Shown here in pieces: positions 8,050 to 26,816 of a stretch of 26,816 bases of DNA. Each line of letters opens with the position of its first letter. Position 1 is the stretch's first letter. A program made the position numbers and the translations under genes. Location: positions 1-26,816 of the IMG/VR virus record IMGVR_UViG_3300030331_001815; one strand, given 5' to 3'. The stretch is from a virus. The notes under the pieces are model-generated. The model was not told the origin of the DNA and searched no databases. It was given only the letters and a program-made list of their open reading frames with translations.

Positions 8050-11000
8050 ATGGCAGATTTTCAAAGAAATTTTATTAAAGGACGAATGAATAAAGGCGTT
8101 GACGAACGATTAGTTCCCAACGGTGAATATATTCATGCAGAAAATGTAAGGCTTGGTTCTACTGAACTAACAGAAATAGGAGCAGTAGAAAACTCTAGAG
8201 GTAATTTACAACTTACAAGACTATCTTATGGTGGTAGATTTCTTTCCCCTAATGCTCTAGTAATTGGTGCATTAGAAGATGGTGCTAATGAAGAGCTTTA
8301 TTGGTTTGTACACGACCCCACTTTTGATACTCCGTCTGATGGACCTGAAGAAACTCCAACAGGTATACTAGATTTAGTGGTTTCGTATAATACAAATACA
8401 AGTGCAATTACTTATCATATTATAAGTGTTAGTATTGATGGAAACCCTGACAATGGAACGACATTAAATTTTAATCCTACATTTTTAATTACAGGAGTAA
8501 ATATCATAGATGGATTATTATTTTGGACAGATGATTTTAACCCGCCTAGAAAAATAAATGTAAATAGAAATTACCCTGACCCTGCTGCTCAAGGAGTTGC
8601 TGACCCCAATATAGATGGAGGAACAGGAGAGCCTGAAGGAGCTTTATTGTTACAAGAAAGTATTTTGGTAATTAAAAGACCTCCTGTGGCTTGTCCGGGA
8701 TTAGAATTATCTCTTGCACCGGGAGAAGAAAATTATTTAGAAGATAGATTTATTTCATTTGCATACAGGTATAAATACCAAGACAATGAATATTCAGCAA
8801 TTTCTCAATTTACTGAAGTTGCATTTCAAACACAAAGTTTTGATTTTAGTCCAAACTCTAAAGTAAATGAAGGTGCAATAAATAGATTTAATACCGCCAC
8901 TATCACTTATAATTCAGGTAGTCCATTAGTGGTTGCGATAGATTTATTGTTTAAAGAAAGTGTTAGTAATGTTATTAAAGTAATAGAAACTTTAGATAAA
9001 GACACTTTGGGGCTAGCAAGTGATACTGAATATGAATATGTATTTAGAAATGCTAAAATATTTACAGTACTACCTGAATCAGAATTATTAAGATTATATG
9101 ATAACGTCCCTCGTTTAGCTCAAGCACAAACCTTAATGGGAAATAGATTGATGTTTGGTAATTATGTAGATGGATATGATTTAGTTGATATAAATAATGG
9201 ACCTATAAGATTAGAATATATTAATGAATTAATCACACAACAAATAGGATTAACTGAAATTACTGATAGAACGGATAGTGTAGATTATACGGTAGATGTA
9301 CCTATTACGGTTAATAATGGTCAGCTTCTTATAAACTTAGCTAATGCTAATCTAACTGCAGGTGCTCTTCTAACTTTTAGTGTAACTTTTCAACACGACA
9401 CATTTAGTGGAGGGCCACCAAATCCCGTTGAAACTTCTTCAAATTTTACAATTGCCTTTCAATATACATTGCAACAAGACTTTGCTACAGTTTTTGATTT
9501 AGCAACAAACATAGACTTCCAAGAAGCCATTGGAGTTCCTGCTGAAATCCTACCTGTTTTTGATGCAAACCCTGCAAACCCTACTTCTTGTGAAGGAGTA
9601 ACATTAACTGATGTTTTTAATTGTGCAGTACCCGAAGTTCTAGATGCAACATTAACACCTAGTTGGACCAAGTTTCAAAGTGGTATTTCTGCTTACGGGC
9701 AACCAATAACAATAGTTACATCACCGGGTAGTAGTGAAATAGGTTTTGAATTTTTAGCAATGGAGAGAGTAGATGATGTAGCTGCTCCTATTGATAGAGT
9801 AGTAGAATACTTTGATATTGTTACTGCTGAAGCGACTTATCAAGAAGTTGGAAACACTCAAAGTCTTCATAGCGATAGAGATTATGAGGTTGGTATAATA
9901 TATATGGACGAGTATAATAGAGCTAGTACTGCCTTGGTTAGTCCAAACAATACTGTTCATATTCCTTGTGAATTTTCTGACAATCAAAATAGTTTAAGAG
10001 TTACAATACCCGCTACGCAACGTCCTCCCTTTTGGGCTTCACGTTTTAAATTTTGTATAAAACCTAGTGCAGCAGGTTTCTTAACCGTGTTCAGCAGGGT
10101 ATTTTTTACCGACCCTGTAACTAACTATCAATACTTTTTGCTTGAAGGTGAAAACTCCCAAAAAGTTGAGGAAGGCGATAGATTAAAAGTAAAAAGAGAT
10201 GCTAGTGGGCCGGTTGACAGATGTTTATTTGCAACAGTATTAGAAAAACAGGCACAAGAACGAGACTTTCTTGAGAACTTAGTTGATGCAGAGGGAGAGC
10301 CTATTACTGTTCCGGCAGGAGTGTATATGAAGATGAAAGCCAACTTTAATGTAAACAATGATGCCAATCAAGTAATTGCACCGGGAGCAAAAACAGTAAG
10401 TCAAGAAAATCAGCCTGTTCCGGTGAGTCCTGCTCAAAGGAGGTTTGCAAGAATATTTTATAATGAGGCTTTTAGTAGAGAAGATAGTGCAAATCCAAAT
10501 AATTTTATAGATATTGATATTCCTGTTGGTAGTAGAATTAAATTGTTTATTTATTGGAATAGACGTGGTAGGGGTGGTACAGATTGTGGAAGAAGAAGGT
10601 ATACTTTAGATTTAGATTTGATAGCTTCACAAAGCTATGATAATATTATTGATTGGTTTAACGGAGATAACGTTGACCAACTAATAAATACAGGTGAAGA
10701 TGAAACTGCAGGAAATGAGCCGCCAATAACAAATGTATTTGATAGTACAGTATATGCTAGTTTAACTGCAATGGCAAACCAAGTCACTGCTGAGTTTGAA
10801 ACTAATAAAATAGCTTGGGCTAGAGACGCAGCAACTAATGAAATTTATTTTTTCTGTACAGGAGCAAAACAATGTGCGGGTGGTGGAACTGCGAGAAACA
10901 AATCTTTTATTACAGTTGAATGGGAAATTGTTAGGTCAACTACCGAGATTGTTTGGGAAACAGAACCATCGGATGCTAGTCCATCTTTATGGTTTGAAGG

Positions 11001-14000
11001 TTCACAATCTTTTAGAGTAACTAGCGTAGGTCAATGTTATTTATCTGTAGAAAACAATAATGCATTTGATATTGAATATTTATATGAATTAGACGGGTTT
11101 GACAAGACTATAGTAATTCCTGCAAACACAACAATAGACAATATATTAATTACTTGTGGGACTGCACAAGAATCACCCGCTACTCCAACTGCACCGGGTA
11201 CAACAGTAGTTATCGAAACTAATGTTTTACCTCCTGCTCACACAGGAAATGTACAAAGTCAGGTTATTGCAACCAATACACCTGCCATTATAGATTTAGA
11301 TTTCTTTAATTGTTTTTCTTTTGGGAATGGTGTTGAGACCATACGAGTGAGAGATTCTATCAAAGGTAGAGAGTTGGCTCTTGGTGATAGATTTACTTCA
11401 GTTGCTAACATTGATTATAAAGAAGCTAATAGGTTTTCGGATATAACATATAGCGGAATATTTAATGATGAAAGCAACATTAATAAACTAAACGAATTTA
11501 ATATAGCTTTATTGAACTTCAAGACCTTGGAAGAGGCTTACGGTCCAATACAAAAATTGGATGCTCGTAGCACAGACATACTTACATTACAAGAAGATAA
11601 AATTTCTTATGTGTTAGCAGGTAAAAACTTATTATCTGACGCTGCCGTAGGAGGAGCTATAACATCAGTGCCTGAAGTATTAGGAACTCAGATAGCAAGA
11701 CTAGAAGAATATGGTATCAGTGCAAATCCTGAAAGCTATTATAAATATGGTTACAATAAATTTTTTACTGACCAAAAAAGAGGAGCGGTATTAATGTTAA
11801 AGGGTTCAGCCTACACGAATGAGCAATTAATGGTTATATCAGAAGCAGGAATGCGCTCATGGTTTAGAGATACATTTATAGAAACTCCTAACACACAAAA
11901 GCTTGGAGGTTATGACCCTTATATGGATGAATATGTGTTATCTTTTAATAATAGATTATTGCCATTAGAAATACCTTGTGTAGATTGTGGTGTTCAACAA
12001 CAATTCGAATATAGAGGTCCTGTAAATTTCTGCTATAATGTTGGTCAGTTAGTTGGAGATGTAACAGTTACTATCAGAGTAGATAATTTTTCAGGCAGTG
12101 GTGTAGACCCTATAACTTTTAGATTCACATATAATGGTCTCGTATTCATTCAAGATGTATTTGCTAACGGGACATATATTGTTACCATACCTAAAAACTC
12201 TGTAGTACAAGACACTATTGATTTATTAATTACAGGCACACCTTCTGCTCGAATAGACCTTGAGGTTAGTTGTCCTGAAGCAGAGGAAATTACAATATAC
12301 CAAGTGTGTGTTAGTTCAGATTCAAATGCAGGTGAATTCATACATAATGAATATAGATGGGCAGATGGAACATTTATTTCACCTTTACACTCAACAGAGG
12401 TAGAATTAGCAAGCGGAACAGACAACCCATTAATTTCACAATTTGACGGTATTACAGGTCAGCAAGGAGCAGGTGTTATTCCTGCAGACGGAGCACTTGT
12501 TACAATAAGAAGTAATAAGATAGCACCGGCAGATAATTTTGATTTTGTAACACCACCTATGACATTTAGATTTTTGAGAACAAATGATGTTTATGCAAAC
12601 ACTCCTGCTTCAGTGGCTACATTATTGACTAACGCCAATGTAGGTGTAGTAGACTCATCATTAGCACCAACGCAATTTAGCTCATCATTTGTAATGCCTC
12701 CTACAGGTAGCAACGTGTTTTTAATATACGATTATAGACAACCTACGTTAGTAGAATTATGTTATGGTAACATTGATATATTTGATGTGTGTTGTTTATG
12801 TGAAGCTCCTGAAAGATTTGTTGCTACACAATGTAGATTAGATGGTGTAGTTAATACAGAGGTTGTTGAAGGTCCTTACGCAATAGGTGAGTTTGTTGAA
12901 ATAGATACTTCGTTAGATGGCATTAAAATTGAAACTTGTATATACGAGCTAACTGCTAACACCACTGATATAGCTACGGCATTAGTAACAGGATTAAGTG
13001 CTATAACTGATTGTACTGACTTATGTCAAAAATATACAGTAGAAAACACGGGAGGTGTAGCTCAAGATGTGGAGTATTTAAATTGTGGAGGAGTTAATGA
13101 AACGGCTACTGTACAACCCGGAACTACTCTTGATGCTATTTGCGCTAAAGAAATAGTAAGTATAGGAGTTGATTTAGTATTAGACTTAAAAAATTGTGCG
13201 TGTGAAGACCAATATATTGAAATTAAACGATGTGTCGACCAACAAAGTACAGGTGGGGATTTAATTAGATATGCGAATGATAATTTAACTTATAATGTAA
13301 GTGATGTAGTGTTTATAGATGAAGACCCTACTTGTCAATACATAATTACACAAATAGGTTTATATAACCAAATTGTAGATGCCACTGTAAATTCTGTTAA
13401 TTCATCGTTAGATTGTACAGATGCGTGTAACACATACGAAGTAACTAATAATGGAATAGGAGACTTAAGTGTTGAGTACAGAGAGTGTGGTAAGAATATA
13501 ACTGATACTGTTGTAATACCTCAAGGTGACTCAACAATAATTTGTACTAGAGAGTTTATTACATCAATTACTGCTCCGAACACAGTAGTATGGCAAGCCT
13601 GCGATTGTGACTTACCTGATTCTAATTTTAGATTGAGAGAATGCACACAAGACGGAACTATTAATGAATTAGTTGCATCGTTTAGTGGATTTGGTAACGT
13701 TCAAGTAGGAGATTATGTAGAAATATCAGGAAGCATATGTATATGGGAAGTAATAGCTGAAACACAAGACGCTGCTACAGATATTATAACACAAATAAGA
13801 GGTGATATAACGAATTGTGAAGATAGTTGTGATACGTATACTTTAGAAAATTTAAGCACAACAACTACGTATACAGTAAATTATTTGGATTGTGCAGGCG
13901 TTCAACAATCAGTAACCATTTCACCAACAGGAGTTCAATCAGCTTGTGCTACACTGTTTTTAGGACCACCTGTAGATGTAGATATTGTTAAATCATTTTG

Positions 14001-14016
14001 CGGATGCCAAGTTTAA
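8050..14016 (+). CDS. Giant muzzle/nozzle-type tail protein with C-terminal cysteine-rich tandem repeats
   Basis: This 1988-residue protein forms, by analogy with T7 gp12 and the crAss-like muzzle, the distal tube of the short tail. The N-terminus FIKGRMNKGVDERLVPNGEY (about residues 8-27) is the hallmark opening of these beta-propeller tail proteins. About residues 30-1300 are beta-rich with the conserved late segments QKRGAVLMLKG (about 1241-1251), GMRSWFRDTF and GGYDPYMDEYVLSFNN (ending about 1300). Beyond that the chain is unusual. Residues 1322-1410 look like a beta-sandwich, and residues 1585-1988 are three tandem repeats with 8 cysteines each. A partial copy of the repeat sits at 995-1037. 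The length exceeds the roughly 1400 residues I recall for the muzzle of crAss001. The segment that normally follows the propeller motif appears in a separate gene at 14980. Confidence 0.8.
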   Translation: MADFQRNFIKGRMNKGVDERLVPNGEYIHAENVRLGSTELTEIGAVENSRGNLQLTRLSYGGRFLSPNALVIGALEDGANEELYWFVHDPTFDTPSDGPEETPTGILDLVVSYNTNTSAITYHIISVSIDGNPDNGTTLNFNPTFLITGVNIIDGLLFWTDDFNPPRKINVNRNYPDPAAQGVADPNIDGGTGEPEGALLLQESILVIKRPPVACPGLELSLAPGEENYLEDRFISFAYRYKYQDNEYSAISQFTEVAFQTQSFDFSPNSKVNEGAINRFNTATITYNSGSPLVVAIDLLFKESVSNVIKVIETLDKDTLGLASDTEYEYVFRNAKIFTVLPESELLRLYDNVPRLAQAQTLMGNRLMFGNYVDGYDLVDINNGPIRLEYINELITQQIGLTEITDRTDSVDYTVDVPITVNNGQLLINLANANLTAGALLTFSVTFQHDTFSGGPPNPVETSSNFTIAFQYTLQQDFATVFDLATNIDFQEAIGVPAEILPVFDANPANPTSCEGVTLTDVFNCAVPEVLDATLTPSWTKFQSGISAYGQPITIVTSPGSSEIGFEFLAMERVDDVAAPIDRVVEYFDIVTAEATYQEVGNTQSLHSDRDYEVGIIYMDEYNRASTALVSPNNTVHIPCEFSDNQNSLRVTIPATQRPPFWASRFKFCIKPSAAGFLTVFSRVFFTDPVTNYQYFLLEGENSQKVEEGDRLKVKRDASGPVDRCLFATVLEKQAQERDFLENLVDAEGEPITVPAGVYMKMKANFNVNNDANQVIAPGAKTVSQENQPVPVSPAQRRFARIFYNEAFSREDSANPNNFIDIDIPVGSRIKLFIYWNRRGRGGTDCGRRRYTLDLDLIASQSYDNIIDWFNGDNVDQLINTGEDETAGNEPPITNVFDSTVYASLTAMANQVTAEFETNKIAWARDAATNEIYFFCTGAKQCAGGGTARNKSFITVEWEIVRSTTEIVWETEPSDASPSLWFEGSQSFRVTSVGQCYLSVENNNAFDIEYLYELDGFDKTIVIPANTTIDNILITCGTAQESPATPTAPGTTVVIETNVLPPAHTGNVQSQVIATNTPAIIDLDFFNCFSFGNGVETIRVRDSIKGRELALGDRFTSVANIDYKEANRFSDITYSGIFNDESNINKLNEFNIALLNFKTLEEAYGPIQKLDARSTDILTLQEDKISYVLAGKNLLSDAAVGGAITSVPEVLGTQIARLEEYGISANPESYYKYGYNKFFTDQKRGAVLMLKGSAYTNEQLMVISEAGMRSWFRDTFIETPNTQKLGGYDPYMDEYVLSFNNRLLPLEIPCVDCGVQQQFEYRGPVNFCYNVGQLVGDVTVTIRVDNFSGSGVDPITFRFTYNGLVFIQDVFANGTYIVTIPKNSVVQDTIDLLITGTPSARIDLEVSCPEAEEITIYQVCVSSDSNAGEFIHNEYRWADGTFISPLHSTEVELASGTDNPLISQFDGITGQQGAGVIPADGALVTIRSNKIAPADNFDFVTPPMTFRFLRTNDVYANTPASVATLLTNANVGVVDSSLAPTQFSSSFVMPPTGSNVFLIYDYRQPTLVELCYGNIDIFDVCCLCEAPERFVATQCRLDGVVNTEVVEGPYAIGEFVEIDTSLDGIKIETCIYELTANTTDIATALVTGLSAITDCTDLCQKYTVENTGGVAQDVEYLNCGGVNETATVQPGTTLDAICAKEIVSIGVDLVLDLKNCACEDQYIEIKRCVDQQSTGGDLIRYANDNLTYNVSDVVFIDEDPTCQYIITQIGLYNQIVDATVNSVNSSLDCTDACNTYEVTNNGIGDLSVEYRECGKNITDTVVIPQGDSTIICTREFITSITAPNTVVWQACDCDLPDSNFRLRECTQDGTINELVASFSGFGNVQVGDYVEISGSICIWEVIAETQDAATDIITQIRGDITNCEDSCDTYTLENLSTTTTYTVNYLDCAGVQQSVTISPTGVQSACATLFLGPPVDVDIVKSFCGCQV
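11032..11160 (+). repeat. Internal partial copy of the muzzle cysteine-repeat unit
   Basis: Residues 995-1037 of the muzzle-type protein (CYLSVENNNAFDIEYL, then TIVIPANTTIDNILITC) align by eye with the second half of the C-terminal repeats (CQKYTVENTGGVAQDVEYLN, then TATVQPGTTLDAIC). The fourth- and sixth-position cysteines are kept and the fifth is lost. It is probably a beta-sandwich module inserted in a loop of the propeller. Confidence 0.55.
12802..14013 (+). repeat. Three tandem 134-135-residue, 8-cysteine protein repeats
   Basis: Repeat 1 spans 12802-13203, repeat 2 13204-13608 and repeat 3 13609-14013, making up residues 1585-1718, 1719-1853 and 1854-1988 of the muzzle-type protein. 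Each holds exactly eight cysteines in the same order: one in an RxC start, one mid-domain, a CxxxC pair (DCTDLC, DCTDAC, NCEDSC), one after a Y(L/R)xC segment, one before the last strand, and a terminal CxC. Repeat 1 is preceded by a matching CxC end (CCLC, residues 1581-1584). The nucleotide sequences have diverged, so the duplications are old or under diversifying selection. Confidence 0.85.
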
Positions 14017-15801: not shown

Positions 15802-16314
15802 ATGGATAATTTATTACCTATTAAGATATTAAGTAATATTCCACAGGGAAAAGGGGTGTTATGGGAGCACATTGAAGTATTTAAAAATCAACTTCTTGAG
15901 ATAGAAGGGGTATTAGAACATAAGGCGGGAACAAAACAATCTGAAGAAATGGCAGATGTATACCCTTTAAAACAAACTTTAAGGGGTGGTTTATACACTA
16001 GAGAGTTATTTATGCCAAAAGGTCATATAATTATTTCTATGGTTCATAAACAAGACCATCCTTCATTTTTGTTAAAAGGAAAGGTATCGTATCTTACAGA
16101 TGAGGGAACAGTACAAACAATTACTGCTCCTCATTTAATACATACAAATACCGGAACACAAAGGGTTTTATTTATACATGAAGACACGGAATGGTGTTGT
16201 GTATATAGAACAGATAAAAAAACTTTTACCGAGGCAGAAGCTGATGTATACACTAACAATTACAAAGAGTTGCCTCAAGAAATAATTAATAAAAGAATAA
16301 AATGTCAGGTATAG
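15802..16314 (+). CDS. Cupin-like phage structural protein
   Basis: This 170-residue protein starts at the ATG at 15802. A TTG start at 15790 would lie inside the promoter element and is rejected. Residues 55-136 read as a small jelly-roll: LKQTLRGGLYTRELFMPKGH, then VHKQDHPSFLLKGKVSYLTD, then APHLIHTNTGTQRVLFIHED and WCCVYRT. His82 and His86 on one strand and His126 on a later one are at cupin-like metal-ligand positions, but whether metal is bound cannot be told. Similar (Y)xRE...PxG....kH...H...kG...v..dg...i.aP......GtqRv proteins occur among tail genes of several podovirus groups, usually as structural or assembly proteins. It overlaps the next gene by 13 bases (16302-16314), implying coupled translation. 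Confidence 0.7.
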   Translation: MDNLLPIKILSNIPQGKGVLWEHIEVFKNQLLEIEGVLEHKAGTKQSEEMADVYPLKQTLRGGLYTRELFMPKGHIIISMVHKQDHPSFLLKGKVSYLTDEGTVQTITAPHLIHTNTGTQRVLFIHEDTEWCCVYRTDKKTFTEAEADVYTNNYKELPQEIINKRIKCQV

Positions 16315-17234
16315 GTATAGGATTAGGATTTACTGCATTAGGCACAGGGTTGTCTTTTTTTCAAGCGGGAGAGCAAAGAAAAAGATTTAAAGATGCCGAA
16401 AGAAAAGCTGCTGAATCTATGGAAGCAGCACGTAAAAGATTAGAGGTAAATTATCTTGAACAATTAGGTATAGATAAAGAAGCGTATGAAGAAATGAGAG
16501 AAGCTGCTTTAGTTTCCGGAGCTCAAACTTCTGAAGCTTTGGCAGAGTCCGAAAGAGGTATTGCTGCAGGCGCAGGAAGATTAGGAGCAAATATGACGGC
16601 TGCACAAGAAGGAATAACAAAAGCACAACGAGCAGAATCTTTTGCCTTAGACAAAGCGGTAGCAGCAGAAGACTCAAGACTTAGAGACGTAAATGTACAG
16701 TTAGATTTAGGAGAAGTAGCAGGTGCACAACAAGCTATGGCTGATTCAAAAGCTGCAGAAACTGCCGCACTAACTCAAGGATTTCAAGGACTAGCAAATT
16801 TAGGTGCAGGAGCAATATCAGCAAGTAAACTGTATGGAAAGTCAGAAGGAGCTAAAGCCTTTGATAAAGCTCAAGGAGCTTCTATTCGTCAAGCCAAGCA
16901 AGACTATATGCAAGGAGCAGGTCAAGGTAAAGGTTTTTTGGGAATTGGCACAGGGTTTAGAAAAACAGGAGCACGAGATATAGCAGCGGATTCTTTTGTT
17001 CAACAACAAGTTGCGGGTATAGATTTTGGAACAGGTAAGCAAAATTTTCTTGACGCAGGAATGCAAGGTGATAAAGTAATTGGTGTAGACCAATTTGATA
17101 GTAGTGCTATAGCAGGTATGAGTGCAGCAGAGTTTAAGTCGTATATGAATAGTTTAGCTCCGGCACAGAGAAATATGATACTTCAAAAACTTGGTTTGAT
17201 TGGTGGGTCAGAGACGGGATTACTTGGATTTTAA
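16302..17234 (+). CDS. Internal virion / ejection protein, T7 gp14-like (membrane helix plus coiled coil)
   Basis: This 310-residue protein opens with GIGIGLGFTALGTGLSFFQ (residues 3-21), a Gly-rich hydrophobic helix with GxxxG spacing, suited to membrane insertion. It is followed at once by a charged coiled coil (QRKRFKDAERKAAESMEAAR) and a long Ala-rich helical region to about residue 160. A second weak apolar stretch (GFQGLANLGAGAISASKLYG) lies near residues 158-180. The C-terminal third is Gly/Gln-rich and likely flexible. This arrangement and its place as the smallest of three genes after the tail block match the first ejection protein of T7-like phages, which enters the host outer membrane on infection. 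It overlaps the cupin gene and is separated by 10 bases from the next gene. The role is inferred by analogy. Confidence 0.68.
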   Translation: MSGIGIGLGFTALGTGLSFFQAGEQRKRFKDAERKAAESMEAARKRLEVNYLEQLGIDKEAYEEMREAALVSGAQTSEALAESERGIAAGAGRLGANMTAAQEGITKAQRAESFALDKAVAAEDSRLRDVNVQLDLGEVAGAQQAMADSKAAETAALTQGFQGLANLGAGAISASKLYGKSEGAKAFDKAQGASIRQAKQDYMQGAGQGKGFLGIGTGFRKTGARDIAADSFVQQQVAGIDFGTGKQNFLDAGMQGDKVIGVDQFDSSAIAGMSAAEFKSYMNSLAPAQRNMILQKLGLIGGSETGLLGF

Positions 17235-17244
17235 TTAATATTAT

Positions 17245-19155
17245 ATGAGCACCTATTTTAAATACGCAGAAAGAAAAGCTACAGACGAAGTAAATTGGTC
17301 TGAAATAAGCTCTAATATGGTCAATACTCTAAACGAGGCCGTAAAGATTAGAGAAGAAAAAAAGGCAGCAATTGACGCAGCCACCAATTTACTAGGAGAG
17401 ACTTTGGCAGATGCGCCTCAAGGGGAACATCAAGGATTAAACGAGTTTGCTTTGACATTTGCAAACAATGCTCAAGAGATGAGATTGATGCAAGATAAAT
17501 TATTAAAGTCCGGGCAAATATCTTTGAAAGACTACAATATTGGTAGAGCCAACTTAACACAAGGAACAACTCAATTATTTGATTTAAGTAAAAAATATCA
17601 AAAAGAGTACACAACCAAAATGGAGAGAATGGCAAATCTCGAGTCAGCAGAACAAGAACAATGGATGATGGCCGAACTTGAAGGGTTTGCTAACTTTAGT
17701 AATCATTCTGCAATTATAAATCCAACCAACGGTCAAGTTAGTGTAGGTAAATTTATTCAAGGTACAAAGCCAAAGACAGACAAACAAGGATATGAAATAG
17801 AAGGAGAAACAGTTCCTGATGGTGTTTATAGGCTTGACACTAACCCTGATTCTTATACCACTGTACAACAATTAAACTTCGCAGTATCTGACCAAGTCAA
17901 TCGATATAATATGGAGGAGTTTGATGCTTCAATAGACCAATGGGCAAGCTCCTACACAGATGCTATAAGTGCTAATTATTCCATTGATGATGTTAGGCAA
18001 AACCCTGCATTTAAACAAGCTAAAAATGATTTGATAGAAGGTCAATTAGTTGACCCGAGACAAGCAGGTAGTATTCTTACTGACTTTGTGGGTGTGGCTA
18101 AAAATGGTAAAACATACACCTTTACTAGAAACCCCGATGAAGCAGGAGAAAATGTTATATTACTTGAAGAAGACCCAAGACAACCGGGTTCAGGAAGATT
18201 AGTTCCTAAGCTTGATGAAAAACAAAGAAAAGCAGCATATGATTATTTAGACACACAAGTTGAAATAAGATTCGGTAGAAAAGAAACCAAGAAAGAACCT
18301 TCATCAACAAGTATTGCTTTAGGTAAAACTGAAAAAGCTAATCTTAACGCATTGAATAATTTAGGTAAACTTTATTATGGAGACTCAGGAGATGTAGATG
18401 CCGCACTTGGATTCTTAAAAGGATTAGACGATGATATAGTTTCATTAGAGCGTACTACTGATGCAGTGATAATAACTAAAGGTAACGGCAACGTAATAAC
18501 CAAGAAATTTAAAGATGACAATGGTGTATTAATACCACAAGATGAATGGATTACTAGTATAGCAACTGAATTAACCGACATTAAAGATATTAAAGGTCTA
18601 TTAAACAACTCAGGTTACAAAAAGGATAAAGCTTTTGCACCGGATTCTACAGGGTTCTCACAAACTGTAACATCAACAGTAAGTAGAGAGAGAAGTTTAG
18701 ATGCTTACTTTGAAGAAGCATTCCCTGAGGAGTTTGAAGAAACATTAATGCAGTCGGATGAAGATGACTTTCAGGCTGCAGCATCACCGTTCTTTAGTAC
18801 TCTAGGTTTGACTACTAGAGGAGCAGGCGGTCCGTTTAATGATATTGTGGTATCATATAAACCTACTAAAGATGCAACTGCAATAGAATTTACTTATGAC
18901 GTTGATAACCCTGATAGTGAAACTAAAGGAAGAGCAGCTTTATTAGAATGGATAAAAGGTGTAGTGCCAATAGAAACCATTGACGACCTAATTAATAAAG
19001 GAGTAATTAGTCAAATTAAAAAGGTGTCGGGTAGAAGAAAAAATAATGATTTAGATAGTTTAGGGGCGGCAGCAGGTCAGGTGGAATGTATAGAAGGAAA
19101 ACTAATTGACAAAGAAACAGGTATAGTAAAGGGAACGTGTGGTAAAGGCAAGTAA
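17245..19155 (+). CDS. Internal virion / cargo protein, T7 gp15-like position
   Basis: This 636-residue, mostly helical and charged protein has no membrane segment or catalytic motif. The N-terminus STYFKYAERKATDEVNWSEI with a following IREEKKAAIDAAT helix is a start I associate with cargo proteins of marine and crAss-like podoviruses. Residues 45-150 remain helical (MRLMQDKLLKSGQISLKDYN, MERMANLESAEQEQWMMAEL). Residues 150-300 have mixed beta segments and PRQPGSGRL. The last 50 residues contain a Lys/Arg patch (KKVSGRRKNNDLD) and cysteines near the end (VECIEGK, GTCGKGK). It lies between the gp14-like gene and the giant gene, the order gp14-gp15-gp16 of T7, and so would be packed in the head and form part of the DNA-ejection channel. 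This is inference from order and composition. Confidence 0.63.
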   Translation: MSTYFKYAERKATDEVNWSEISSNMVNTLNEAVKIREEKKAAIDAATNLLGETLADAPQGEHQGLNEFALTFANNAQEMRLMQDKLLKSGQISLKDYNIGRANLTQGTTQLFDLSKKYQKEYTTKMERMANLESAEQEQWMMAELEGFANFSNHSAIINPTNGQVSVGKFIQGTKPKTDKQGYEIEGETVPDGVYRLDTNPDSYTTVQQLNFAVSDQVNRYNMEEFDASIDQWASSYTDAISANYSIDDVRQNPAFKQAKNDLIEGQLVDPRQAGSILTDFVGVAKNGKTYTFTRNPDEAGENVILLEEDPRQPGSGRLVPKLDEKQRKAAYDYLDTQVEIRFGRKETKKEPSSTSIALGKTEKANLNALNNLGKLYYGDSGDVDAALGFLKGLDDDIVSLERTTDAVIITKGNGNVITKKFKDDNGVLIPQDEWITSIATELTDIKDIKGLLNNSGYKKDKAFAPDSTGFSQTVTSTVSRERSLDAYFEEAFPEEFEETLMQSDEDDFQAAASPFFSTLGLTTRGAGGPFNDIVVSYKPTKDATAIEFTYDVDNPDSETKGRAALLEWIKGVVPIETIDDLINKGVISQIKKVSGRRKNNDLDSLGAAAGQVECIEGKLIDKETGIVKGTCGKGK

Positions 19156-19161
19156 TTAATT

Positions 19162-22100
19162 ATGGATAATAAATTATACAAAACACCAAATGGTAAAACA
19201 TTTGATGAACCTTATTTAAGAGAAAAATTTGGAGACGACTTTGGATTGCTTGTGGCTACAGGTCAGTTGGAAGAAATAGAAAATCCGCCTTTAGAAGAAG
19301 AGGTTATAGAGGATGAAATTTTCTTAACTCCTAATGGGAAAGAATTTACTACCACACAATTAATTGAAAAGTTTGGTCCTGTTGGGTTTGAGGAAATAAA
19401 AGACCAACTCAAAAAAAAAAATCAAGACGGAACTTTTTCGGACTCAAGTTTCAATTTGGAGGAAGCACTTGGCGTTTCGGATTTATCAGAAGTTGAACCG
19501 CCTGCTGATGAGCGTGCTGAAGCGGTTACAGTTCGAGACAACCAATCCTTTGTAAATCCTGCAATACCTCCGGGTGTAAGTGAGGAAGACGCTGCAATAA
19601 AGATTCAACAAGACCTAGAGCAAAACTTACAGGAAACTGCAGAGTTTAATATAGCTGAAGCTGAATATGATTCGGTTAGCAGAGCAAGAAAGTTAGACCA
19701 AGATAAAGCTAACAAAGAGTTTGCGAAAAAACAAAAAGAAACAGAACAAGCTTTAGAAAATGCGGGTATTCAATTAGATGAAGATTTTAAATCTGCAATT
19801 CAACTTGTAAATAAAGATTTAGTTTTAGCCGAACAAGACGAAGCGGCTAGAGCAATTAATGGTGCGTTTGGTAAATACGGAATCAACGCATACTCCACAG
19901 GTATTTTAGGTAGAGATACAATAGTAATTCAAAACTTTGATGGTACTAATTCTATAACGGTTGAAGTAGATGAATTTACTGATGCTCAAGCTTTAGAAAA
20001 TTCTAAAAAAATTCGTGATTTTATAACACTCAACGCTATGAACGTGGAGGATAACTACACTCCCGAAGGAAAAGATGAAGACTTAATTCGTAAAGCATTC
20101 CGAGCAAAACAAAGCAGACCTATTGGTTTAATTAATGATGATGGCACTATGTCTACCCATAAGTTTATGCAATATGAAGAAGATGGAAAATTTTATGTAG
20201 TGCCAACGGTGTTTCCTAGAGACCCTGAAAATATGTCTACAAGAAGAGAAGATTGGTTTAAATTCAATATGGACGATTCTATTACTATGGCAAAACTAAG
20301 GGGTGAGGTTTATGAATTTGAAACTGAAGAAGAAGCACAAGATTTTGCAGAAGGTGCTTGGAAAAATGTAAGCACTGTAGATTTAGAAGGGCAGAGGTTT
20401 TATCAAGACCGTGGTCTCGATTATAATAGTGCACGTGTGTTATTTGACAATTATGAAGCAGCACGAGATGAAAGAATATTTTTAGAAAATGTATTAGCAG
20501 AAGCAGAAACAGTCGATAAATACGGTAAGTTAGGACCAAGAGCGTTGAAGTTTGAAAATTTAACTGAAGAAGAAAAAGAACTTTATGGTGATTTATATGT
20601 TGGCGGATATCTTGTTAATGATGCTATTGAAAGACTCGAAGAAGTAAAACAAATAGAAGAAAGCTTGTTTGAAACAGTTATAGACAACCAAGACATTGCT
20701 AGAGCTAGAGAAGATTTTGACGCATACTTAGCTAAACAAAGAAGAGAAAAAGCTCAAAGCGCAGCAGCTATAAACCAACTTGCACAATTTGATTATATGA
20801 AGCTTGACTCCGAGACCATAAACCAATTTGGTGTAAGAGCCGATGCTTTACCTACTTACAAACCTAAAACCACGTATGAGGCAAAACTAAAAGATTCTTA
20901 TTTAGAAAGACTTAACACTATATCACAAACAGAAAAAGCCGCAGCGTTAAAGTATGACATAGCTAAAACATACTTTAATGAGAAAGAAAACAAATATATT
21001 CAAGAAGAATTCGTTGATAATTTGGAGTCTTTTATGGAACAATGGAGAAACGGATATGCACGAGGTATGGCTATTGAACAACTCGTAATGATGCAACTAG
21101 GCATTACAGACATGGACGACCCCAACGACAAAGAAGAGGCGGCTAGAAAAATATCAGAAGCTTTACTAAGTCAAAGCAACAAACAAAGTAGAACAGTAGC
21201 TAGATACTTTAATCAAAAAAGTGGAGCAGAAGGTTGGAACAATTTTAAAAGAGACCCGCTAGAATGGATGACTTCTTTAGCGGCAAACTCTATTAGTCAG
21301 ATGCTTCCTTATGGTATGTGGATTATTCCTAGTACAACTGCGATGGGTACAGGAACAGGCGCAGCTATTGGTGGCGCTACAGGAGGACTTCCCGGTGCAA
21401 TAGCAGGAGGTAAGACAGGTGCAGTATGGGGATTAAGAACCGGCTTTGCAGCTACAAGTTTTGCAATGGAATATGGTAATGCATTTATCGAAGCAATGGA
21501 AAGTCAAGGTTACAATTATTTAAATCCTGCAGATGTTGAGGCAGCCATAAGTGATGAAAATGTGTGGGCAGAAACAAATGACAGAGGAGTAAAAAGAGGA
21601 TTAGCAATCGGTACAGTTGATTTCTTATCTATGGGGTTAGCCGGTAGAATATTTAGAGCAAGCAAGCTCTCAGGTAGAGGGACTGCGCTTGCCGCATTTA
21701 CTGCAGAACGTTTTACGTTTGACCCTTTTATGGAAGCCACAGGAGAATATCTTGCACAAAAAGCAGTAGGCGATGAAATAGATTGGTTAGAGATTGGAGC
21801 AGAAGCCGGGGGTGCAGCAGGTAATCAAACAATGCAAGCAGCCGTCAATGTATATATAGACCAAAGGAATAGAAGTAATTTAGATATAGCTAATCGTCTC
21901 GCTAATAATATAAATGAGTTAATGAATGAAAGTGCAAGTGATGAAAGAATATCACAATGGGCTACCAATATGTTTAACTTAGGTAAAATAGATGCTGATA
22001 CCAATCAAAAAATACAAAAGAATGTTGGGTTAAGAAAAACTATTAAAGAATTGTTAGGAGGGAGAAAAACAAAAAAAGCAGTTAAAGTAAGATTAGCAGA

Positions 22101-25100
22101 ACTCCTACAAGCTAAAGAAGAATTAAGCACTGATACTAATAAAAAAAATATATACAAAAGTGTATTAAAAAGAATCAATGATGAGATAAGTCAGATTGTA
22201 GAAACAGGAGTAGTTCCTGAACAAATGAAAATTGAAAACAATGAGAATGTAGGAGGTATAGGTGTAAACTTAGATGCTATATTAGGAAAAACAAAACCCG
22301 ATAAAACTGCAGAATATAAGTGGCGAGGTAAGAGGGTCACTCGTCAAAGGTTTTTAGACAAGTTAGCGAAGGTAACAAAAGCTTCACAACTTGGTAAGAA
22401 CACAGGAGTAAGCAACGACCTAGAAGTACTAACCGAATTAATAAAAGTAAAAGATGCCATTCAGAAGCCAAGCACAGAGAAAGTGGATGTACAAGAACAA
22501 ACCACAGATGGCAGCACGGTGGGAGAAGGAAACGTTCAACAAGAATCTACCACTGAAAGTGTCACGACAGAGACGGAGACGGAAAGCGTAGAAGTATTAG
22601 ATGATAATCAATATGCGACAACTCCATTCCTATTAAGGAGTAGACCGAAAACTGCAGAAGAAGAAGCCGTAGCCTACGAAGGAAATAAAGAGAAATCAGA
22701 AGAATTCTACATTGATAAAACAATTGAGAAAATGAAAGAGAGGGGGAAAACCGCTGATGAAATATTTGATAAACTTGTACAAAGGTATGGGTTGATGATG
22801 AATGAGGTATTGTCTTTCAAAAAATATGTAGAAGGAAAGGTAAACGGTGATATTAAAACCGATATTAGAACATATAGATTAGGTAAACAACAGGCAATAG
22901 CAAATGCCACGGCAGAAGCAGTAAGCGAAACAACTGAAACTGAAGAAACAACTGAGGAAATATTTAGTGATGTAGAACTAGAAAATATATCTGAAGAGTT
23001 AAAAGACCTTGAAGCTTTTGTTAAAAGAGAAAACCCTAAGTTCAGCATTAAGCCTAACTTAACCACACAAGAAAAACAAAAAGCATTAGATGATGAAGCC
23101 TATAGAATCCTTACTGAGGCTGAAAACGCAGGACTATCAGAGAATGCATATACTGTAGAAAACCCTCAAGTACAAACCATACCTATTATTATAACTGAAA
23201 ACTCCGAACTCGCTAACAGGGTTAGACGTATGGGATTAGACGAATTAATTGGAAAGAAAATTAATTTAGTAATGGCTGACCAACTAGTAACTAACTCAAG
23301 ATATATGGGTGGTCCTTTCTTCCCATTACAAGACGGATTATACAATAAAGTAGCTTGGGCTTCAATGAATAAAAAAGCAGCAAACGATATTATTAAAGGT
23401 GCAATTGATGCTGATTATACTGTTGTATATAATATGACACCTAACGCAGTTAATGCTAATGTTGCAATCCGTACAGAGTTCTTGTCTCGTTTGGAAAACT
23501 TAGATGCAGACACCCAATCAATTATATTTGAACAAGTTAAAGACCATTTAACCGATAAGGTTTATGGTGAAAAGGGTAAAGACACCACTAAAGTTAAAGA
23601 CTTACTTACAAACTCCACAACACTTGAAGAGTTCTTTGATGGTTTAAACTTTGAAGTAACCGTAAAAGCTAAAGTTATAAAAGACATCCTTCCAACTAAA
23701 ACCAAAAATGCAGAATCGGAGCTTGGACAAACATTACAAGATTTAGGTATCACATTAGAAGAAGTGCAAGAAAGTATCACCGAACAATTTGTAAAAGATT
23801 TACCTGCAGGTGCAATGACTATGGTGTTAGAAGTTCAAGACAAGAATGGAAACAAAGTAACAGAACAAACAAAATCAGAAGCGCTGATTACGTCTGAGCA
23901 GCAAACAGAAGAAGGATTGAAACCACATCCTAATTATCCTGTGTACATAAGAGGAAAGGCGATTGGTCTCCTTGAAGAGACAGTTCCTTTTTGGAATGTT
24001 GTACCTGACTCAATGGAAAAAATTGATGCTAAAACTACAGGTCAAATAACAAGAGATTCAGGGAAAAAATCAACTGCAAAGCAAATAGTAAACGACACTA
24101 TGAGAAGCGCAATGATGAATCAAGATAAAACCGTTCAAACATCTGAACCTACCGCTTCTCAATATACAAGGTTTATAAACCTATTGACCAAAGCGTTCCC
24201 GGGAGTAGAGGTAGTAAACGACCAAGCTTTGTTTGATGAGTTGTTATTGCAACCAAGTGTTGTAGCTCTTACCACTAAAGCAGAAAGAGAACAGAAACAA
24301 ATAATATATGGTGCGGTGTTCCAAGGAAAAATATATTTGAATCCTGCACGTTCAAACTTTAATACACCTATTCACGAGTTCGGTCACATATGGAATACTA
24401 TGGCTAAAGAGTTAAGACCGGAGCTTTACAATAAAGGTATTGAGCTAATCCAAGGTACAGAGTATGTTACACAGGTGCTAGAAAACAAGCAATACCAAAA
24501 GATAATAAAAGAGATGCGTGAGGATGGAGCAACTGAAGCGGAAATCCAAGAGTTCATAAATGAAGAAGCACTAGCTACTGCTATTGGAAACAAGGGTGAG
24601 TCCTTTGTTAACGCATCAATTAAGAAAGGATTTAAGAATTGGTTGAATAGATTATTCAATTTTGTAAAATCAGTTGTCGGTTTATCTAAATACACTGACG
24701 AACAAATCCAAGACATAACTTTAGATGAGTTCTTACAAGGAGTAGTTGTAGATTTATTATCAGGTGAAGAGGTGTTTGTTAATGCTGAGGTCAAGAACAT
24801 AGACAACACTGTTAAGTTGATGGCAGTTGAAAACGATGCGCTAACCACTATGGTTTCTACATTAAGACAACAAGGGTTCTCTGATATTGCTATACGTAAG
24901 TTTTTACAAAATAAGAACTACAGTGCAATAGAAATTAAAGAAGCAATGGCAATTGAAGCAGAACAAGTATTGTTTAATGATTCTTTTGTTCCTGCTGAGT
25001 TCGGTAATGTAGAGGGCGGAATGTTGGTAGGTAGACAATTGTTTGACCAAGTAATTAAAAAACTAAAAGCTTACGCAAAACCTACGAGAACAAAACCTAG

Positions 25101-26816
25101 AACGGAAACGGCAGAGGAAAAAGTAATTAGAGCAAACAAGCTTAGAGAAGCTAACCCAAAACTATTTGCTTTAACTGACAAAGAAATACTAGCTAAATAT
25201 CCTAACGTAGGAATTAAAGGTGAAATAAAAGGCGAGCCTAAAACAAAAGCACAGATAAGACAAAAAGCTCTAGAGCTATTAAGAGAGAATGAAATATTTC
25301 AACAACAACCTCAGATAACTCAGGACGCTCTTATCGTAGCCTTAGACAGAGTAATAGACACAAGAGCTAACGTTCAGGTACAAAAAGAAATAAGTGCCAT
25401 TAAACGTACAATTAAGAACAGAAAAGAGGGTGCTAAAACTTTACAAGAAGCTAAGAGAAGATTAAGAATGTATATTAGAAGTGCAATCCCTCGTACAGAT
25501 AACTACACTTCGACACAAGTAAATAAATTTATAAAGATAGTAGCCGAAGCAACAGACGCCACTATCTTAAGAGATATTGACAAAATAAATACTGAAGTAG
25601 AAAAGACACGAGAAAAAATTAAGAAGCTTGTAATACGTGATATTAAAAAACTAGTTAAGGACAAATCAAAGAAAAGAATTACACAGTCTAGAAAAGGAAG
25701 AAGTAAAGGAGTAAGTGCAGAAACACAGGCGTTTATGGAGCAAGCTGATATAGTTTTGAATGCAGTACTTAAAAATGATTTAGATAAACTAGAAAGCATA
25801 AAACAAGAGATAGCAGAAAACGAACAAGAAATATTCCAACTTATATTAAAGTTAAATGATGGTCAGAAACTTACACGTGCAGAAGAAAGATTAGTTAATC
25901 TAGCGTATGCATATGATAACTTCTCAGACCTTCAAAGCTTATCATTAGAAGAAGTTCAAGCTTTATTAAAAAAGTTCAAGGAGCTACGAGCAGAAGGAAT
26001 TAGAACTTTTAAATCAAGAAGAGAAGCTAGAGCCTTAGAACAACAAGCTATCAACAAGCAAGCAGAAGAACAGATAGTTGAAGACTATGGTGACATTGTA
26101 GTTGATGATGAAGGTAATGCTAAAAACTCACAACAACTCAGAAGAGATAGAGAAAACATAAACAAGCTATTGAATGAAGGTAAGTATATGAAATGGATTA
26201 TGACTTACCTAAACCATTGGAGGATGAATAGTTGGAACTCAGTTGTTACTGCGTTTACCAATAATATGAAACACCTAGGTACTCTTACTAATCAAATTGA
26301 CAATGCAGGTCGTGGTAAGTTTTTCTTTGAAAACATATACAAAAGATTAAACAGAGCTGACGAAGCTAATATGAATGGTTACTTTAGAACACAGGATACT
26401 TTAGATAGCATTGTAAATAGCATAGAAGGAATAGACCGTGGTATGAAACAAGTACGAGAGTTAGTATATCAAGAAGGTGTAATAAATATACGAGTACGTG
26501 AAATAAAAGCTGACGGCACAGTTCAAAAGAATTTCCAAACTGCTGATTACAACCGAGACCAATTGCTAAGAATCTACGCACTATATAAAGACCCTGTTCA
26601 ACGTGCTAAATTAGAGAAACAAGGTTTCACTCCAAAGGTAATGGAGGAGGTTGAAGCATTCTTAGGAACTCAGCTTACAGAGGTGGCAGATAAAATTGTA
26701 GACTTTTTAAGTAATGAGTACTATAATGAGATTAACGATGTCTATCGTCAAGTTAACGATGTAAATCTCAGCTACATTGCAAACTACTTCCCAACACAAA
26801 CAGTAAGCACCGCAAG
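19162..26816 (+). CDS. Giant virion-associated polyvalent protein with metallopeptidase and glycine-ladder membrane region (partial, 3' end outside window)
   Basis: An uninterrupted reading frame starts at ATG 19162, 6 bases after the preceding stop, and stays open to the window edge, giving at least 2551 residues. Domains in order: two TPNGK repeats (6-22, 54-70); a Glu-rich linker and helices; a phage virion domain at 319-401 with NDDGTMSTHKF and VVPTVFP; helices; a glycine ladder at 729-761; a Thr/Glu-rich linker at about 1100-1146, with GC richer than its surroundings; an MGGPFFPLQ...AWAS domain at about 1337-1440; a zinc-metallopeptidase site HEFGH at 1738-1742 with EEALA at 1801-1805; and a long charged helical region to about 2380 with RTFKSRREAR. 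The part before the edge has NYFPTQT, typical of large polyvalent phage proteins. By position it is the T7 gp16-like ejected protein: pore former and wall- or protein-cutting enzyme delivered with the DNA (inferred). Confidence 0.75.
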   Translation, partial: MDNKLYKTPNGKTFDEPYLREKFGDDFGLLVATGQLEEIENPPLEEEVIEDEIFLTPNGKEFTTTQLIEKFGPVGFEEIKDQLKKKNQDGTFSDSSFNLEEALGVSDLSEVEPPADERAEAVTVRDNQSFVNPAIPPGVSEEDAAIKIQQDLEQNLQETAEFNIAEAEYDSVSRARKLDQDKANKEFAKKQKETEQALENAGIQLDEDFKSAIQLVNKDLVLAEQDEAARAINGAFGKYGINAYSTGILGRDTIVIQNFDGTNSITVEVDEFTDAQALENSKKIRDFITLNAMNVEDNYTPEGKDEDLIRKAFRAKQSRPIGLINDDGTMSTHKFMQYEEDGKFYVVPTVFPRDPENMSTRREDWFKFNMDDSITMAKLRGEVYEFETEEEAQDFAEGAWKNVSTVDLEGQRFYQDRGLDYNSARVLFDNYEAARDERIFLENVLAEAETVDKYGKLGPRALKFENLTEEEKELYGDLYVGGYLVNDAIERLEEVKQIEESLFETVIDNQDIARAREDFDAYLAKQRREKAQSAAAINQLAQFDYMKLDSETINQFGVRADALPTYKPKTTYEAKLKDSYLERLNTISQTEKAAALKYDIAKTYFNEKENKYIQEEFVDNLESFMEQWRNGYARGMAIEQLVMMQLGITDMDDPNDKEEAARKISEALLSQSNKQSRTVARYFNQKSGAEGWNNFKRDPLEWMTSLAANSISQMLPYGMWIIPSTTAMGTGTGAAIGGATGGLPGAIAGGKTGAVWGLRTGFAATSFAMEYGNAFIEAMESQGYNYLNPADVEAAISDENVWAETNDRGVKRGLAIGTVDFLSMGLAGRIFRASKLSGRGTALAAFTAERFTFDPFMEATGEYLAQKAVGDEIDWLEIGAEAGGAAGNQTMQAAVNVYIDQRNRSNLDIANRLANNINELMNESASDERISQWATNMFNLGKIDADTNQKIQKNVGLRKTIKELLGGRKTKKAVKVRLAELLQAKEELSTDTNKKNIYKSVLKRINDEISQIVETGVVPEQMKIENNENVGGIGVNLDAILGKTKPDKTAEYKWRGKRVTRQRFLDKLAKVTKASQLGKNTGVSNDLEVLTELIKVKDAIQKPSTEKVDVQEQTTDGSTVGEGNVQQESTTESVTTETETESVEVLDDNQYATTPFLLRSRPKTAEEEAVAYEGNKEKSEEFYIDKTIEKMKERGKTADEIFDKLVQRYGLMMNEVLSFKKYVEGKVNGDIKTDIRTYRLGKQQAIANATAEAVSETTETEETTEEIFSDVELENISEELKDLEAFVKRENPKFSIKPNLTTQEKQKALDDEAYRILTEAENAGLSENAYTVENPQVQTIPIIITENSELANRVRRMGLDELIGKKINLVMADQLVTNSRYMGGPFFPLQDGLYNKVAWASMNKKAANDIIKGAIDADYTVVYNMTPNAVNANVAIRTEFLSRLENLDADTQSIIFEQVKDHLTDKVYGEKGKDTTKVKDLLTNSTTLEEFFDGLNFEVTVKAKVIKDILPTKTKNAESELGQTLQDLGITLEEVQESITEQFVKDLPAGAMTMVLEVQDKNGNKVTEQTKSEALITSEQQTEEGLKPHPNYPVYIRGKAIGLLEETVPFWNVVPDSMEKIDAKTTGQITRDSGKKSTAKQIVNDTMRSAMMNQDKTVQTSEPTASQYTRFINLLTKAFPGVEVVNDQALFDELLLQPSVVALTTKAEREQKQIIYGAVFQGKIYLNPARSNFNTPIHEFGHIWNTMAKELRPELYNKGIELIQGTEYVTQVLENKQYQKIIKEMREDGATEAEIQEFINEEALATAIGNKGESFVNASIKKGFKNWLNRLFNFVKSVVGLSKYTDEQIQDITLDEFLQGVVVDLLSGEEVFVNAEVKNIDNTVKLMAVENDALTTMVSTLRQQGFSDIAIRKFLQNKNYSAIEIKEAMAIEAEQVLFNDSFVPAEFGNVEGGMLVGRQLFDQVIKKLKAYAKPTRTKPRTETAEEKVIRANKLREANPKLFALTDKEILAKYPNVGIKGEIKGEPKTKAQIRQKALELLRENEIFQQQPQITQDALIVALDRVIDTRANVQVQKEISAIKRTIKNRKEGAKTLQEAKRRLRMYIRSAIPRTDNYTSTQVNKFIKIVAEATDATILRDIDKINTEVEKTREKIKKLVIRDIKKLVKDKSKKRITQSRKGRSKGVSAETQAFMEQADIVLNAVLKNDLDKLESIKQEIAENEQEIFQLILKLNDGQKLTRAEERLVNLAYAYDNFSDLQSLSLEEVQALLKKFKELRAEGIRTFKSRREARALEQQAINKQAEEQIVEDYGDIVVDDEGNAKNSQQLRRDRENINKLLNEGKYMKWIMTYLNHWRMNSWNSVVTAFTNNMKHLGTLTNQIDNAGRGKFFFENIYKRLNRADEANMNGYFRTQDTLDSIVNSIEGIDRGMKQVRELVYQEGVINIRVREIKADGTVQKNFQTADYNRDQLLRIYALYKDPVQRAKLEKQGFTPKVMEEVEAFLGTQLTEVADKIVDFLSNEYYNEINDVYRQVNDVNLSYIANYFPTQTVSTA
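19177..19371 (+). repeat. Two N-terminal TPNGK repeats in the giant protein
   Basis: Residues 6-22 (YKTPNGKTFDEPYLREKFG region) and 54-70 (FLTPNGKEFTTTQLIEKFG region) share TPNGK-x-F-x5-L-x-EKFG and lie 48 residues apart. Each is followed by a short acidic segment. They look like a small peptide module duplicated at the protein's N-terminus, perhaps for docking on another cargo protein or the portal. Confidence 0.75.
21346..21444 (+). other. Nine-glycine ladder (GxxxG repeated eight times) in the giant protein
   Basis: Residues 729, 733, 737, 741, 745, 749, 753, 757 and 761 are all glycine, with mainly small or apolar residues between (e.g. GAAIGGATGGLPGAIAGG). Flanks are hydrophobic too (ISQMLPYGMWIIPSTTA before, FAATSFAMEYG after). 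This is a long glycine zipper, the helix-packing motif of oligomeric membrane pores, interrupted by one Pro (744) and one Lys (751). Confidence 0.85.
24373..24387 (+). other. HEFGH zinc-metallopeptidase active site in the giant protein
   Basis: Residues 1738-1742 are HEFGH (HExxH), in the context TPIHEFGHIWNTMAKEL. The two His would bind zinc and Glu1739 would be the catalytic base. Glu1801 or Glu1802 in NEEALATAIG, about 60 residues on, is a candidate third ligand (gluzincin type). The following segments resemble those after the same motif in large polyvalent phage proteins. Confidence 0.8.

Follow-up and report, generated by a model that had tools for sequence, protein, structure and literature searches.

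Paired glycine zippers and a variable linker

Alignment with relatives indicates that the glycine register of a giant phage protein is real and under selection, as a three-glycine zipper plus a four-glycine zipper, and that the unbroken nine-step ladder it forms in one virus is an accident of a linker that contains glycine and lies in phase. The ladder is found in a 26.8 kb virus record (IMGVR_UViG_3300030331_001815; this whole stretch is the window), at 21346–21444 on the + strand, where the translation reads GTGTGAAIGGATGGLPGAIAGGKTGAVWGLRTG, residues 729–761 of the ORF starting at 19162. Glycine recurs at i+4 spacing (729, 733 and so on to 761) in nine of nine steps, and the ladder is bracketed by threonines at 725 and 765. 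Nine steps were reached by chance in no more than 1.5e-5 of 200,000 composition-preserving local shuffles, over three choices of stretch (about 1e-5), and in none of 3,000 whole-protein shuffles. A tandem repeat at the DNA level beneath the ladder was looked for in the window and none was found. The perfect ladder reported in the first-pass annotation is exact, and is confirmed as an observation on the window protein.

A profile search returned 51 loci. The alignment comprises 37 non-redundant sequences, the window included, and its 36 relatives share 37–59% identity with the window protein. Across these 37, the glycines of zipper 1 (G729xxxG733xxxG737; 21346..21372, +) are retained at 92%, 97% and 86%, respectively, and those of zipper 2 (G749xxxG753xxxG757xxxG761; 21406..21444, +) at 97% for 749 and 100% for each of the other three. 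Just before the zippers is a conserved LPYG (residues 715–718; 21304..21315, +), with invariant proline and glycine. Between them lies a variable Gly/Pro linker (residues 738–748; 21373..21405, +) that contains the two poorly kept positions of the ladder, Gly741 (64%) and Gly745 (8%). The columns between the zipper glycines are variable, and glycines that are off register are kept at 8% (738) and 14% (750). Both 729/733/737 and 749/753/757/761 have the conserved small residues at i, i+4 and i+8 (three or more) that define a glycine zipper, and no match to the Pfam glycine-zipper families (e.g., Gly-zipper_Omp) was found in the window protein or the 37 family members.

The distance from 737 to 749 ranges from 3 to 23 residues across the 37 sequences and is divisible by four in three of them, so that the phase is lost in 34, and proline occurs within this stretch in 36 of the 37. 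Relatives at about 60% identity have a seven-residue insertion in the middle of the ladder, and the homologue in MW202828 (36–37% identity) has Ala or Ser at several ladder positions. Apart from a neighbour of 96% identity, in which all nine glycines are retained, the longest unbroken ladder in relatives is 3–6 steps, compared with nine in the window. Conservation at seven positions, the variable linker and the rarity of a common phase together suggest that the register is selected in two pieces. The idea that a four-residue glycine register is kept as the residues between vary is borne out within each half, and fails for the nine steps taken as a unit.

A Gly/Ala/Thr-rich stretch might also fall into register through its composition, with no selection at all. 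The segment is indeed rich in glycine (13 of 33 residues), and low-complexity ORFs across viral contigs yield long ladders; however, four glycines kept at 97–100% and three at 86–97% among relatives of 37–59% identity, together with the poor retention of the off-register glycines, contradict such an accident, which we consider extremely improbable.

Long ladders are found in other viruses. A DNA pattern scan of the whole collection gave at least 120 nine-step stretches and, among the matches listed, most are in low-complexity or short ORFs. Hydrophobic, non-repetitive examples were chosen by eye from 23 that passed a filter, again among the matches listed, giving at least about ten with 9–12 steps (L014, L027, L028, L038, L042, L049, L066, L069, L120 and L124), all of them at least as hydrophobic as the window ladder. 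The view that a nine-step length is exceptional is thus not supported among phage proteins. Ladders of 9–11 steps occur in proteins of other phages (L027, L038, L049, L069 and L120), and these are the five of seven scanned ladder proteins that matched tape-measure families, some weakly.

Helix geometry, predicted structure and hydropathy

On an alpha-helix, residues spaced at i+4 drift by about 40 degrees per step, so the glycines span 80 degrees over three steps, 120 over four and 320 over nine. At this drift the nine glycines form no single face, and only the halves can each form one; the 'continuous glycine face' over about 33 residues proposed earlier is not compatible with this geometry. 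To bring all nine onto one contact, a right-handed supercoil with a pitch of about 54 Å would be needed.

AlphaFold2, run with 10 and with 37 sequences, predicted residues 699–781 as one continuous helix within an all-helical domain, with pLDDT values of about 75–84 across the ladder in the better, 37-sequence model. The ladder is thus placed in a helix and not in a soluble loop. A hairpin, expected from the variable, proline-containing linker, did not appear in the models, and the zipper segment may be either a kinked helix or a hairpin. A Foldseek search of the PDB with the first model gave no match at E ≤ 0.001, the best VIA-align hit of the second (Z 5.2) was unconvincing for a helical model, and no convincing sequence relative was found in the PDB (best E 0.21). 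In a viral structure library, large phage proteins were matched at low TM-scores, with LT_GEWL and 'large polyvalent protein' among their annotations, which is consistent with a family of giant phage proteins.

The hydrophobic flanks ascribed to the ladder are real but weak: the best 19-residue Kyte–Doolittle mean is only 0.82 (residues 718–770). The family median is about 1.24, and no member attains 1.6 in the ladder region, values below those usual for transmembrane segments. Two charged residues, K751 and R759, lie inside the window ladder, and position 759 is R or K in 34 of the 37 sequences. Complete relatives have a weak hydrophobic segment in the N-terminal third and stronger segments near the C terminus.

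On the model of the first-pass annotation, a single long helix would use a glycine face of nine steps to pack into an oligomer that forms a channel through the inner membrane. The exact register in the window and its 96%-identical neighbour and the continuous predicted helix would suit this, as would the T6SS effector Tde1, in which zippers extend over residues 12–51 and one is required for membrane permeabilisation, with similar zippers in some phage tape-measure proteins, those of Paraburkholderia/Burkholderia (PMC10240207). It is made very unlikely by the unconserved middle positions, a linker of variable length that rarely keeps phase, the winding of the glycine stripe and the weak hydropathy.

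Alternatively, the zippers may serve only in the close packing of helices within a soluble, helix-rich intracapsid core, allowing compact storage and refolding on ejection, and never enter a membrane. The low hydropathy, the charged positions 751 and 759 and the all-helical domain agree with this, as does the behaviour of T7 gp16, a soluble monomer when purified in spite of its putative membrane regions (PMC8954989). Set against it, relatives are more hydrophobic here than the window protein, and ejected proteins of the gp16 type must traverse the inner membrane somewhere (PMC8954989). We regard a purely soluble role as possible but rather unlikely. Given this behaviour of T7 gp16, conditional insertion is compatible with the low hydropathy, whereas a classical transmembrane channel gains no support from it.

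The giant protein and its gene cassette

The giant virion or ejection-type protein (19162..26814, +) comprises 2551 aa in the window, where the contig cuts off the 3′ end of its gene; a plain ORF list leaves it out because the frame is still open there. Its complete relatives are 3.1–3.9 thousand aa long. It is preceded by a gene for a 310 aa protein (16302..17234, +; phrog_13764, virion structural) and one for a 636 aa protein (17245..19155, +; phrog_35506), which by position resemble T7 gp14 and gp15, respectively. This cassette follows a block of genes for the portal and other virion structural proteins, and the surrounding gene order is podovirus-like. The order 310 aa, 636 aa, giant was kept in all seven relatives checked (L004, L129–L133 and MW202828), with significant sequence similarity for all three proteins. 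The phrog_13764 protein belongs to the same family as gp99 of Cellulophaga phage phi38:1, which has an equal gene layout, and a gene of MW202828. As in T7, where gp16 is the third gene of an internal-protein cassette downstream of the tail genes, the giant comes third, and it probably helps to inject phage DNA as part of a T7/N4-type ejection cassette. The cassette order and the phrog_13764 assignment make it very probable that the giant belongs to an ejection-protein cassette, in line with the earlier proposal of a protein that is packaged and ejected. The nearest cultured phages (of Cellulophaga, Flavobacterium and Tenacibaculum) suggest that the host is probably a member of Bacteroidota. 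Upstream, at 8050–14016, is a 1988 aa structural protein whose C-terminal part holds modules that are rich in Cys and look repeated; its MW202828 homologue is just 1551 aa.

Directly after the zippers is a domain (residues 762–896; 21445..21849, +) with the motifs EY.N, VW, KRG, D, GLAGR.F, DP..E..GE..AQ and GG.GN. A portion of this domain was recognised in the giants of Limnohabitans phage DC33, Pseudomonas phage AF (gp16) and Xanthomonas phage CP2 (gp25), whose zippers did not align; the AF giant also matched by hhalign (E 4.9e-9). In phage AF, the giant comes after internal virion proteins (phrog_308 and phrog_418) and an endolysin, and likewise in CP2. The record of DC33 (L006, PQ492659.1) places this phage in Inoviridae, but its genome of 39 kb and its giant protein of the present type suggest that it is taxonomically misassigned.

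The same polypeptide carries an HEFGH zincin-type metallopeptidase motif (residues 1738–1742; 24373..24387, +), conserved in L004, L128, L129 and gp074 of Tenacibaculum phage Gundel_1, where the match to the giant protein is limited to the surroundings of this motif. The motif pattern was not found in the complete relatives L130–L133. As a long phage protein of several domains that carries an HExxH motif, the giant fits the polyvalent type, in which zincin-type metallopeptidase domains are common (PMC5512222). Pfam and PHROG scans of the 2551 aa gave no named domain and no match to a tape-measure PHROG. Eight of the 37 members matched DUF6861 at E values up to 0.01 (best 4.4e-6), although the one score seen against its cut-off fell below it (23.7 versus 28 bits), and the ladder region of the window protein itself had no match. 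Comparison of the zipper domain with phi38:1 gp101 and Gundel_1 gp074 was not significant. At the N terminus (19174–19425) there are two repeats, YKTPNGKTFDEPYLREKFGDDFG and FLTPNGKEFTTTQLIEKFGPVGF, at residues about 6–28 and 54–76, possibly a docking element; the MW202828 giant has a different tandem pair at this place.

Related systems and the role of the zippers

T7 (gp14/15/16) and phage DEV (gp73/72/71) have the same layout as the window cassette (PMC8954989, PMC10925440), and the giant third protein of DEV is proposed to be ejected (PMC10925440). Like T7 gp16, the window giant is encoded by the third gene, the largest of the three, and comes behind one small and one medium-sized internal protein. 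A small-residue-rich, weakly hydrophobic segment in its N-terminal part may correspond to TMH I, and the hydrophobic segments close to the C terminus of complete relatives may correspond to TMH II (PMC8954989). It differs in being about twice as long or more and in carrying the metallopeptidase motif, and neither hmmsearch nor hhalign of the zipper domain against T7 gp16 was significant. No N-terminal transglycosylase was found by Pfam or PHROGs in the 2551 aa; such a domain is also absent from the P22 and Sf6 homologues, and T7 gp16 is reported to show no pore activity on its own (PMC8954989). N4-like giants such as DEV gp71, a virion RNA polymerase, resemble it in length, about 3,000 aa or more, and in standing third in an ejection cassette. 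N4-type virion RNA polymerases are fused to zincin-type metallopeptidase domains (PMC5512222), but no RNA polymerase domain was found in the window giant. The giant of Podoviridae sp. ctfjg026 (MW202828) has the same domain and gene order, with several zipper glycines replaced as described above. Tde1 and the tape-measure zippers are similar in having consecutive GxxxG motifs within a protein delivered through the envelope, and some family members weakly match DUF6861. However, Tde1 is a T6SS toxin, and the window giant has two zippers with a variable linker.

On the best reading, the giant is a gp16-like ejection protein in which the zipper region serves for helix packing or crosses the membrane. 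We consider it fairly probable that the ladder is a chance, in-phase join of two conserved zippers in a protein like T7 gp16 or N4 gp71, within a weakly hydrophobic segment that crosses the membrane; the sequence, the conservation pattern and the cassette synteny are the observed part of this account. GxxxGxxxG and GxxxGxxxGxxxG would flank a variable Gly/Pro linker, in phase by chance in the window, within a mostly helical domain of the giant ejection protein of a podovirus-like phage. Each zipper may allow very close packing of two helices, either in an intramolecular hairpin or between neighbouring subunits. In the virion the segment could be folded away, like TMH I of T7 gp16, and after ejection it may cross or line the inner membrane; a further hydrophobic region, close to the C terminus, would lie beyond the end of this contig. 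A more specific proposal appears unlikely: that a helical hairpin made of the two zippers inserts in the host inner membrane and oligomerises into the inner-membrane channel of podoviral ejectosomes, a solution at which tape-measure proteins and T6SS effectors would have arrived independently.

Of all parts of the ejectosome of short-tailed phages, the one that takes DNA across the inner membrane is the least well understood. The significance of the present family rests on its paired zippers and not on the nine-step ladder: the motif is ordinary but its context is good, since the paired zippers are a conserved element of these giant ejection-type proteins and offer seven near-invariant glycines as targets for mutation.
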